Shown here one piece after another: positions 13,914 through 32,001 of a stretch of 64,000 bases of DNA. This stretch comes from Lentisphaerota bacterium (GTDB lineage Bacteria; Verrucomicrobiota; Lentisphaeria; Victivallales; Victivallaceae). The translations under genes were made by a program, and so were the position numbers. Under the pieces are notes generated by a model. The model searched no databases and had not been told where the DNA came from. It saw nothing but the letters and a program-made list of their open reading frames with translations. Numbering within the stretch: position 1 is the stretch's first letter; every line of letters begins with the position of its first letter. The DNA lies in NCBI GenBank assembly GCA_015061775.1, contig SUVY01000004.1, positions 1 through 64,000 on the forward strand. Direction: 5' to 3'.

Positions 13914-13940
13914 ATCGCATTGAGCAAAAAAACAAGGATC

Positions 13941-14129
13941 TGTTCCCGACAAAGGCAGGTAAAAGTAAATAAAAAAGTTTTTTCGCTTTTCTTGAAAGGG
14001 TGAGATCCGCCGTCGCCAAGGCTATGGCGGGACAGGGGGAAAAGAATAACGAAGCCGACGTTCGGCTTCTTTTCTCGCGAAAAGAAGTTTTCCCGCTTTC
14101 TTTCGCATCATCTCCCCATATCGGGAACA
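13941..14129. repeat. Short element with terminal inverted repeats, copy 1
   Basis: The element is bounded by TGTTCCCGA (13941-13949) and TCGGGAACA (14121-14129), a perfect 9 bp inverted repeat. The inside has a GAAGCCGA/TCGGCTTC hairpin and no gene. The outer parts closely match 31925-32001, a shorter copy lacking the middle. It resembles a non-autonomous MITE-like element. It sits between the convergent ends of the hydrolase and kinase genes. Confidence 0.7.
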
Positions 14130-29274: not shown

Positions 29275-29285
29275 TGCAATTTTTT

Positions 29286-29469
29286 GGTATTGTCCCAATT
29301 TTTGTGAAAACTTTTCGAAACAGATGATAAACAATATTTTGTTATACGCTTAAATATAACACATAAGATATGTTTTGTTAACATATGCAAAACGCTTGTC
29401 AGCATCGGGGGATGCATCCGCGGGGCGCCGCCGCCGTTCAGATTGTCTCACAACATTTGAGACATTAAC
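29286..29469. repeat. Direct repeat A, copy 1 (184 bp)
   Basis: Almost identical, with about two substitutions, to 31637-31913 once the 93 bp insert in that copy is removed, and in the same orientation. It contains ATTG-TCC-CAAT, GCATC/GATGC and TGTCTCA/TGAGACA hairpins and a minus-strand promoter. It holds no gene. With 29169-29285 it fills the region upstream of the SDR gene. Confidence 0.85.
29353..29381 (-). promoter_or_regulatory. Promoter within repeat A copy 1, facing the SDR operon
   Basis: Minus-strand TTAACA (29376-29381), 17 bp spacer, TATATT (29353-29358). The equivalent site in copy 2 is TTGACA. Confidence 0.55.
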
Positions 29470-29494
29470 AATTTTTTAGAAAAATTTTTATATT
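29465..29494 (+). promoter_or_regulatory. Promoter of the SGNH hydrolase gene at 29564
   Basis: TTAACA (29465-29470), 18 bp spacer, TATATT (29489-29494). The -35 lies at the very edge of repeat A. Confidence 0.5.
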
Positions 29495-29563
29495 GCTGCT
29501 TTATTTTTCCTTAATACGGTGTAAATTAAAACAGTATCTGTTTTTTTACTGAGGATATCACCT

Positions 29564-30850
29564 ATGAAAAAAATCTGCCTCCTTATTATCGCGCTCAGCG
29601 CTTTCTGCTGCGTCAAACTCGGTGCATCTGACACAAAACAGCTTGCAGGCAAACAAATCGATCTCTGCATGATCGGAGACAGCATCACATGGTGGGGCGA
29701 AGGAGATTGCTTCAGAGCCGGGCTCTTGAAACAAATTCCAGAGCTCGCTTTCGTTGGAACTCATACCGCAAAATTCGGTTACAGTCATGCCGGAGAAGGC
29801 GGAAACGGCACCAGAAGCGTTCTTGCCCGGCTCAATGACCCGGAAAGAGTTCCCCCTGCCCGCTACTACCACCTGCTCATCGGAATCAATGACTGCGCAA
29901 ACGCAAGATCAGAAGAGATGATTGCTCCGCGCGCCCGTCTCACCGCAGACAATATCAAAAAAATACTCGACAACCTCTGCGCCCGTCCTTACGTTGACAA
30001 GGTTTTCCTCGGAATGATACTTCCCTGTTCCATCGAGGGAAAAGTCACTCCTGAAGCTTTGAAAAGATTTGATCTCCGTGACCGCACCGGTTCAAAAACA
30101 AACGAGATACTGCGCAATGAGGTATCCAAGTATGGAAACAAAGTTGTGATCATCGAATATGAGCAGGCTCTGCGTCCGCTTGAGGAACGCAAAACGATCA
30201 TCAGACTGCATCCCAACGCCGCTGGTTACGAAAAAATCGTTGCTGTCGCGGCTCCCGTTATCAGCAAACACGCGAAAGCTGACAGTAAAACCATCAAAAA
30301 GCCCGGAGTTGAAGTGAACAACCTCTGGAACGACTCAACAAAAACTTCTAAAGGACTAATTCCCGGATGGTTTACTCTGAGCTTCAAAGTAAACAAAATC
30401 AACGCTTCCAAAATCAATATCACCGTCAAAAATACAAATGTCCCCAAGAAAGACGTTTACAGAATGACCAACAAAAAATTCACCCTGTCAGCAAAGCAGG
30501 GAGAGCGGACTTTTGTCAACGTTTACACCGCTATCAGCTCTCCCCTCACAATTACAGTCAAAGGAGCGTCTGTCGGCGATATCATGCTCGAAAAAATGCG
30601 CCCGTCTAAAAAACCGTCTGTCTATGGAAAAGGTAAATTCATCGACACGACTTCAGCTTTCATGCCGGGAGAACTGCTTGTTGAAGCTGCCCCTGCTCCG
30701 GCTCCTGCGCCTGCAAAACAGAGTCCGGCTGTCCGCATTCCACAGACACCGGCGACAGGAGCTGTCCAGCGGGTCATGCCTCACACGATGCGCACTATAA
30801 ACAAAGCTTACGGTTCACACAACAGCGCACTCGAAGAGGCATTGCGTTAA
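29564..30850 (+). CDS. Secreted SGNH/GDSL-type esterase
   Basis: A 428-residue protein with signal peptide MKKICLLIIALSAFCCVKLGAS. The SGNH triad region is IDLCMIGDSITWWGEGD (nucleophile Ser), the Asn block LIGINDCAN, and the His block RLHPNAAGYEKI, together covering about residues 25-240. A second domain (about 245-360) looks like a beta-rich accessory module. It is followed by a Pro/Ala linker (APAPAPAPA) and a short tail. It is probably a periplasmic or surface carbohydrate esterase. It sits between the two copies of direct repeat A and converges on the next gene with overlapping stop codons. Confidence 0.88.
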   Translation: MKKICLLIIALSAFCCVKLGASDTKQLAGKQIDLCMIGDSITWWGEGDCFRAGLLKQIPELAFVGTHTAKFGYSHAGEGGNGTRSVLARLNDPERVPPARYYHLLIGINDCANARSEEMIAPRARLTADNIKKILDNLCARPYVDKVFLGMILPCSIEGKVTPEALKRFDLRDRTGSKTNEILRNEVSKYGNKVVIIEYEQALRPLEERKTIIRLHPNAAGYEKIVAVAAPVISKHAKADSKTIKKPGVEVNNLWNDSTKTSKGLIPGWFTLSFKVNKINASKINITVKNTNVPKKDVYRMTNKKFTLSAKQGERTFVNVYTAISSPLTITVKGASVGDIMLEKMRPSKKPSVYGKGKFIDTTSAFMPGELLVEAAPAPAPAPAKQSPAVRIPQTPATGAVQRVMPHTMRTINKAYGSHNSALEEALR

Positions 30851-31614
30851 ATCTTTGCCAGACGGCAATACTCGGCAAAATAGCGTTTTCCAAGCTCGTA
30901 CTGGCTCTGAGTATCAAAGTGCAGAGCATCTCCGCGGTCAGTCAGCCCTTCGGCAGAGACACAGCCGGCGTTGTCGAGTTCTGAGGCGGCTTCCCTTATA
31001 AGCTGATTGTAACCGGAAATATCAAACTCAGAATTGAGAAAATAGCCGATTTCGCCCAATACAACTGGAACTTCCGGAATACCAAGCTCAGTACGCAAAT
31101 TGTTTATGACCGTCTTGAGCTTCTCTTTGTAATCGGCTGTACGAAGTTTTGCATCACTTTCTCCCTGATGCCAGAGGATGACGGCAAAATCTCCGCACTC
31201 CTGAGCCTTGCGGGCAAGTTTCACCGCGTCATCGTAGGGGTGGCGGTCGCTGTAGCGGTCTTTGCCTCCCGGCATCCATGCGGAAACGGAAGTACCTCCG
31301 ACCGAAACCGGAACGAGTCCTATTTCACAATCAGGAAAACGCTCAAGCAGAAGCCTTCCGAAAGTGCGCCCGGGACCGACTCCGCAGCGGCGCACGCCGT
31401 TGATATCCAATGTTTTTTCTTCAAACGGGTCGCTTGAATTATTCAATCCCAGCATATTGAGGCGGTCGAAATTGAATGGATCGGCAGCCGGTATCCAGAC
31501 TCCGTCCCAGCGCAGAGCGGTAAGCCCCGGAATATCGGTAACATCGTTTTCGGTAAGATACCCCCTGCCCGACATATTGGATTGTCCGGCCAGCAGTACA
31601 AGCATTTTTGACAT
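30847..31614 (-). CDS. Sialate O-acetylesterase-like (SASA/DUF303) hydrolase
   Basis: A 255-residue cytoplasmic protein. The start MLVLLAGQSNMSGRG holds the GQSNM Ser block of the SASA family, GPGRTFGRLL follows, and ILWHQGESDAK provides the characteristic WHQGESD block. The final His is in GDALHFDTQSQYELG. It would remove O-acetyl groups from sugars; the family also contains xylan esterases. AAGGAT precedes the ATG. Its promoter is inside repeat A copy 2, and its stop overlaps that of the convergent SGNH gene by four bases. Confidence 0.88.
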   Translation of the reverse strand: MSKMLVLLAGQSNMSGRGYLTENDVTDIPGLTALRWDGVWIPAADPFNFDRLNMLGLNNSSDPFEEKTLDINGVRRCGVGPGRTFGRLLLERFPDCEIGLVPVSVGGTSVSAWMPGGKDRYSDRHPYDDAVKLARKAQECGDFAVILWHQGESDAKLRTADYKEKLKTVINNLRTELGIPEVPVVLGEIGYFLNSEFDISGYNQLIREAASELDNAGCVSAEGLTDRGDALHFDTQSQYELGKRYFAEYCRLAKI

Positions 31615-31703
31615 TTCTTTATCCTTATTATTTTGGGGTATTGTCCCAATTTTTGTGAAAACTTTTCGAAACAGATGATAAACAATATTTTGTTATACGC
31701 TTA

Positions 31704-31732
31704 AATATAACACATAAGATATGTTTTGTCAA
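31704..31732 (-). promoter_or_regulatory. Promoter within repeat A copy 2, driving the SASA gene
   Basis: Minus-strand TTGACA (31727-31732), 17 bp spacer, TATATT (31704-31709), giving a leader of about 84 bases before the ATG at 31614. Confidence 0.7.
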
Positions 31733-31773
31733 CATACGCAAAACGCTTGTCAGCATCGGGGGATGCATCCGCG

Positions 31774-31866
31774 AGGCAAGGTCGCGTTTTGCATTGAGCA
31801 CAGCAAGGGAGTGTACTTCTGTACACGACCGCCGCGGCGCAGATGCAAGGCGCGAGATTGACCGCG
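31774..31866. repeat. 93 bp hairpin insert in repeat A copy 2
   Basis: Present only in copy 2 and flanked by CCGCG on both sides, as after insertion with a 5 bp duplication. As RNA its arms CGCGUUUUGCAU and AUGCAAGGCGCG pair fully when G-U pairs are counted. The tip is GUGUAC-UUCU-GUACAC. It codes for nothing. Confidence 0.65.
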
Positions 31867-31924
31867 GGGCGCCGCCGCCGTTCAGATTGTCTCACAACAT
31901 TTGAGACATTAACTATTTTGGCTC

Positions 31925-32001
31925 TGTTCCCGACAAAGGCAGGTAAAAGTAAGTAAAAAGTTTTCACGCTTTCCCCGCATCATCTCCCCATATCAGGAAC
32001 A
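31925..32001. repeat. Short element with terminal inverted repeats, copy 2
   Basis: Ends TGTTCCCGA (31925-31933) and TCAGGAACA (31993-32001). It matches the two ends of 13941-14129 but lacks its central hairpin region, so it is an internally deleted copy. Confidence 0.65.

Follow-up and report, generated by a model that had tools for sequence, protein, structure and literature searches.

Two nearly identical direct repeats lie 2.2 kb apart in the 64,000-nucleotide stretch of DNA analyzed in this study (hereafter the window), each of them upstream of a gene on the minus strand. This raises the question whether they are a duplicated regulatory region, the ends of a composite transposon or separate copies of a mobile element, and whether they could provide the neighboring genes with a promoter. 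To answer it, the two repeats were compared with each other, with the rest of the source genome (2.70 Mb, 107 contigs) and with other genomes of the same genus of uncultured Lentisphaeria.

Structure of the two repeats and their neighborhood

Alignment of the repeat at 29286-29469 (184 bp, plus strand; copy 1) with that at 31637-31913 (277 bp, plus strand; copy 2) revealed two substitutions and one 93-bp indel, in agreement with the first-pass annotation, which had reported about two substitutions and one insert. One substitution distinguishes TTAACA in copy 1 from TTGACA in copy 2 (minus strand), the other is a further T/C exchange. The 93-bp stretch (31769-31861) is confined to copy 2, has CCGCG at either side and is the core of a GC-rich hairpin, with a predicted energy of −69 kcal/mol (z = −3.9) for the surrounding 136-nt region 31745-31880. 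Because the 93 bp lie between CCGCG repeats and are the core of this hairpin, copy 1 is the derived and the longer form the original one. Thus, the difference in length stands, while its reading as an insert in copy 2 has to be given up: it is the normal element interior, missing from copy 1. An Rfam scan of 25-38 kb gave no match.

The copies share the start GGTATTGTCCCAATTTTTGTGA and the end TCACAACATTTGAGACATTAAC, which are imperfect inverted ends of about 25 bp; the ends of the element read GGTAWTGTCCCAA...TTGRGACATTAMC. In copy 2, the left terminal inverted repeat covers 31637-31662 (plus strand) and the right one 31889-31913 (minus strand), with counterparts at 29286-29311 and 29445-29469 in copy 1. 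Directly outside these ends, each copy has its own perfect 8-bp flanking repeat, namely AATTTTTT at 29278-29285 and 29470-29477 for copy 1 and TATTTTGG at 31629-31636 and 31914-31921 for copy 2.

As already noted in the first-pass annotation, both repeats are located upstream of a minus-strand gene. The promoter end of copy 1 is separated by 117 bp from an SDR gene (PF00106; 28422-29168), and that of copy 2 by 22 bp from a gene for a SASA-type carbohydrate esterase (PF03629; 30847-31614). Between the copies and outside the element, a gene for an SGNH/GDSL hydrolase (PF13472; 29564-30850) is found on the plus strand. Copy 2 abuts the start of a second, unrelated repeat family (31920-31972).

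The repeats as members of a transposed element family

The genome search yielded 67 matching pieces, which together with matches to the end pattern were merged to about 48 copies or fragments in the source genome. Several of these coincide with contig ends, where the assembly is interrupted within the element, and the actual copy number may thus be higher. The elements are non-coding, without a transposase ORF, and range from 164 to 366 bp; most have the standard size of 277 bp, as does copy 2, and deletion forms of 164-184 bp, such as copy 1 without its hairpin core, recur across several subfamilies. Among the 31 copies with both ends, 17 are flanked by perfect 8-bp target duplications and 21 by duplications matching at 7/8 or better. 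Shuffled pairings gave 0.9 perfect duplications on average with a maximum of 5 in 1000, and shifted offsets gave 0 or 1. The duplications are AT-rich and differ from copy to copy, and none of the copies lies inside an ORF as called by a simple longest-ORF gene caller. For two copies other than the window pair (L011, L012), paralogous empty sites were seen: after removal of the element and one duplication, the flanks match uninterrupted copies of the second repeat family elsewhere, including one in the window (13933-13992). In one further copy (L048, G000:C93:10551-10916), the right third, including a second right end, is tandemly duplicated, which results in 366 bp.

If a regulatory region had simply been copied by segmental duplication or gene conversion, without a mobile element, the high identity at a spacing of 2.35 kb would be explained, but this is very improbable in view of the genome-wide copy number and of inverted ends and target duplications situated exactly at the borders of homology. 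A recent duplication linking the two repeats in particular, as the first-pass annotation had suggested, is contradicted by the finding that copy 2 differs from three other genomic copies (L004, L005, L006) at only 3-4 positions over 277 bp and is closer to them than to copy 1. The window pair is therefore two of about eight recent subfamily members, which landed 2.2 kb apart.

The second part of that proposal was that the bracketed SGNH and SASA genes might have come in with the repeat, which leads to a composite transposon whose ends, the two repeats, moved both genes as one unit. Near-identical direct copies do bracket 2.2 kb with two genes, and SASA and SDR relatives of the same genus sit in other gene neighborhoods, so that the cluster was assembled somehow. 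Yet the 8-bp duplication is AATTTTTT around copy 1 and TATTTTGG around copy 2, so that the outermost flanks of the pair disagree; separate and unrelated duplications indicate two independent insertions instead of the ends of one transposon. Furthermore, copy 1 is shortened by a third, a transposase is encoded in neither of the two, and copy 2 resembles copies on other contigs more than it resembles copy 1. We hardly give credence to such a joint transfer; deletion between the direct repeats, also mentioned in the annotation, is possible in principle, with no instance observed.

Judged by inverted ends, target duplications, copy number and empty sites, the window repeats are members of a transposed MITE family. 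The general idea of a mobile repeat with a movable promoter has thus held up: instead of only two copies fixed in all relatives, the search revealed about 48 in the source genome, whose promoter is conserved throughout the family and among which target duplications and paralogous empty sites occur. We are highly confident that a non-autonomous DNA transposon of MITE type, which carries an outward promoter and is moved by a trans-acting DDE transposase, inserted independently at the two positions.

Distribution in the genus and nested repeats

Diverged relatives of the element were detected in 15 of 33 genomes of the same genus, and beyond the genus there were marginal matches only. By a conserved gene of the window, the nearest named genomes (Lentisphaeria, 48-50% amino-acid identity) put the organism among uncultured Lentisphaeria of gut and rumen. 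The terminal inverted repeats are nearly perfect in relatives (e.g. L128), and in genome G012, in which the elements are about 281 bp long, perfect 8-bp duplications flank most of the copies in which both ends are present. Genome G015 contains a locus orthologous to the MR_MLE (enolase-superfamily)/SDR genes (79% and 60% amino-acid identity) with no element upstream of the SDR gene; its upstream neighbor gene is also different. Orthologous empty sites did not permit alignment at nucleotide level, and on the SASA side no synteny that would give such a site was present in G012 or G015. The exact left-end pattern had no match in about 85,000 species genomes, a collection from which records near the source genome are possibly excluded. 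A literature search on MITEs in Lentisphaerae returned a single paper, which deals with Porphyromonas gingivalis repeats.

The hairpin core (element positions ~121-245) is commoner across the genus than the ends. It occurs at L066, L085 and other loci in G002, G003, G029 and G031, at times as tandem copies and seemingly lacking the ends, which would fit an independent repeat captured by the MITE. In G008 (L117, L118, L203) and G012 (L162, L170, L174), the core is tandemly duplicated or filled with other GC-rich palindromic repeats, and the ends and the promoter are kept. In the relatives, the hairpin core is a hot spot for nested repeats.

The second repeat family (GGCTCTGTTCCCGACAAAGGYAGGTAAAAGTAAATAAAAAAGTTTT...) is present in the window at 13936-14000 and 31920-31972, at roughly a dozen places in the retrieved loci and also in the relative G002 (L219). 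It is a recurrent landing site of the MITE, some copies of which are inserted inside it. At five chimeric junctions (L022, L029, L034, L056, L062), one MITE end is replaced by the second repeat family, which suggests recombination or nested insertion between the two.

Search for the transposase

IS families with 8-bp target duplications and GG ends include ISL3, IS6, IS1595 and ISH6; duplication length and terminal GG/GGT would fit any of them as parent of the element. Members with the ends of the element were not found for ISL3, IS6 and IS1595: none of the 34 genomes of the genus contains IS1595 or IS6, and ISL3 is absent from the source genome. The ISL3 loci found in the relatives have different ends, which speaks against an ISL3-derived MITE. 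In these draft assemblies, searches limited to the families PF12762, PF01610 and PF13610 yielded no transposase with matching ends, and no transposase gene was located beside the unpaired element ends examined in the source genome.

Candidates for a longer parent were rejected. In the search of G008 and G001, two loci had inverted ends 1.0-1.2 kb apart; one (L115) is an element filled with nested non-coding repeats, while in the other (L116) the ends pair by chance on either side of an AraC-like gene and have no matching duplications. The longer forms in G012 contain nested GC-rich repeats only. The transposase would most likely act in trans.

A predicted outward promoter inside the element

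On the minus strand of the left arm, the sequence TTGACA-17-TATATT with TG before the −10 hexamer is exact in 33 of 37 copies. The complete promoter is internal (element positions 68-96) and reads outward through the left end. In copy 2, it is located at 31732-31704 (minus strand, 11/12 matches, extended −10) and directed toward the SASA esterase gene. Copy 1 is among the exceptions: its site at 29381-29353 (minus strand, 10/12 matches), directed toward the SDR gene, has the rare −35 mutation TTAACA. Both sites are where the first-pass annotation had placed them. A weak hybrid promoter on the opposite strand (TTAACA-18-TATATT, 29465-29494, plus), composed of the right end of copy 1 and its flank, faces the SGNH gene and is near chance level.

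Mean column entropy is 0.13 bits for the −35 and 0.07 bits for the −10 hexamer, versus 0.48 bits for the spacer and 0.47 bits for the leader. Of 77 hexamer pairs at this spacing in the left arm, the promoter hexamers have the second-lowest entropy, behind only their own 3-bp shift. Elements of four other genomes of the genus (seven in all), only about 70% identical overall, have their best leftward promoter at the same position with 9-11/12 matches, the −10 hexamer being weakened in G012 (CATGTT) and partly in G008 (TATTTT, TATGTT). This conservation within the genome and across the elements of relatives indicates that the promoter is a trait of the family and did not arise at the window sites. 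We infer that it functions as a promoter and drives the neighboring genes.

Orientation of the element relative to genes

Between co-directional genes of the source genome, 18 copies have the promoter end toward the downstream gene and 2 are turned the other way (p = 0.0004, no distance filter), in a test chosen post hoc and with gene calls from the simple longest-ORF caller. With a 500-bp limit and only copies with an intact left end, the ratio was 15:2 (p = 0.002), and it held at 13-15:2 under a raised ORF threshold. The right end of the element usually follows the 3′ terminus of a gene (25:6). The promoter end tends to face the other way in G012 (5:11) and G008 (3:8; pooled 8:19, p = 0.05), and these two genomes differ significantly from the source genome (Fisher p = 0.0002). 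An orientation bias common to the whole family is therefore ruled out, and since both genomes lean the other way with a recognizable, weaker promoter, orientation alone is no proof of promoter use.

These data bear on a further reading, in which a genuine MITE carries a relic promoter that is not in use, and chance or target choice accounts for the orientation bias. The bias not being common to G012 and G008 speaks for it, as does the selection of the test after the data were seen. Moreover, the target sites are AT-rich with a T-rich polarity on the plus strand of the element, and this polarity might tie orientation to the A-rich leaders of the genes downstream. On the other hand, T-rich targets occur in both orientation classes of the source genome, so that polarity does not separate them, with the toward class comprising four usable sites only; and the promoter hexamers are among the best-conserved parts of the left arm, within and between species. 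We regard an unused promoter as a serious contender, at somewhat less than an even chance. Conversely, retention of promoter-forward insertions, that is, selection for promoter use, in the source lineage is plausible. The stronger proposal that the element is a dispersed promoter cassette of the source species, with co-directional insertions kept mainly where the promoter faces the downstream gene and some 20 operons placed on one mobile promoter, unlike in the sister species, is put forward only tentatively and appears rather unlikely.

Proposed mechanism

Most likely, the element would be placed in AT-rich sequence between genes by a DDE transposase that acts in trans and has a stagger of 8 bp. 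From a sigma-70-like promoter, transcription would then start near element position 60 and leave the element by its left end. Accordingly oriented insertions, with the left end toward a gene, could thereby supply a new promoter and a leader of which about 60 nt derive from the element. In copy 2, transcription is predicted to begin near 31697, which leaves about 83 nt to the SASA start codon at 31614; the corresponding predicted site of copy 1, near 29346, lies about 180 nt ahead of the SDR start. Copy 2 may thus serve the SASA esterase gene and copy 1, more weakly, the SDR operon.

If the promoter is used, dozens of genes in this lineage would be on one mobile promoter and each landing could switch on the adjoining gene; the lineage could then be used to ask whether orientation decides the retention of mobile promoters.

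Comparison with known systems

Short non-autonomous elements such as ERIC/IRU, RUP and MITEAba12 (PMC2229807, PMC6382973) resemble the element in their inverted ends, target duplications and location between genes. Their terminal sequences, judged as published, differ from those of the element, which was found in one genus of uncultured Lentisphaeria only.

The Correia elements of Neisseria (CREE/NEMIS) are non-coding, intergenic and about 100-160 bp long, have inverted ends of about 24 bp, form hairpins and are present in more than 100 copies (PMC2649163, PMC2229807). They occur as long forms and short forms with an internal deletion, generate a target duplication and carry promoters that were shown experimentally to serve neighboring genes (PMC2649163, PMC2229807). 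The Lentisphaeria element is likewise small, intergenic and non-coding, with inverted ends, deletion forms, target duplication and a hairpin. In contrast, CREE duplicate TA where the Lentisphaeria element duplicates 8 bp, and their promoters arise at the ends with flanking DNA supplying one half, whereas the complete promoter of the element is internal (positions 68-96). Promoter-carrying MITEs like those of Neisseria hence also occur in uncultured gut Lentisphaeria, where the promoter persists across species of one genus although the elements are only about 70% alike. The MITE family is new but of a known kind, and functionally it is like the Correia elements of Neisseria.
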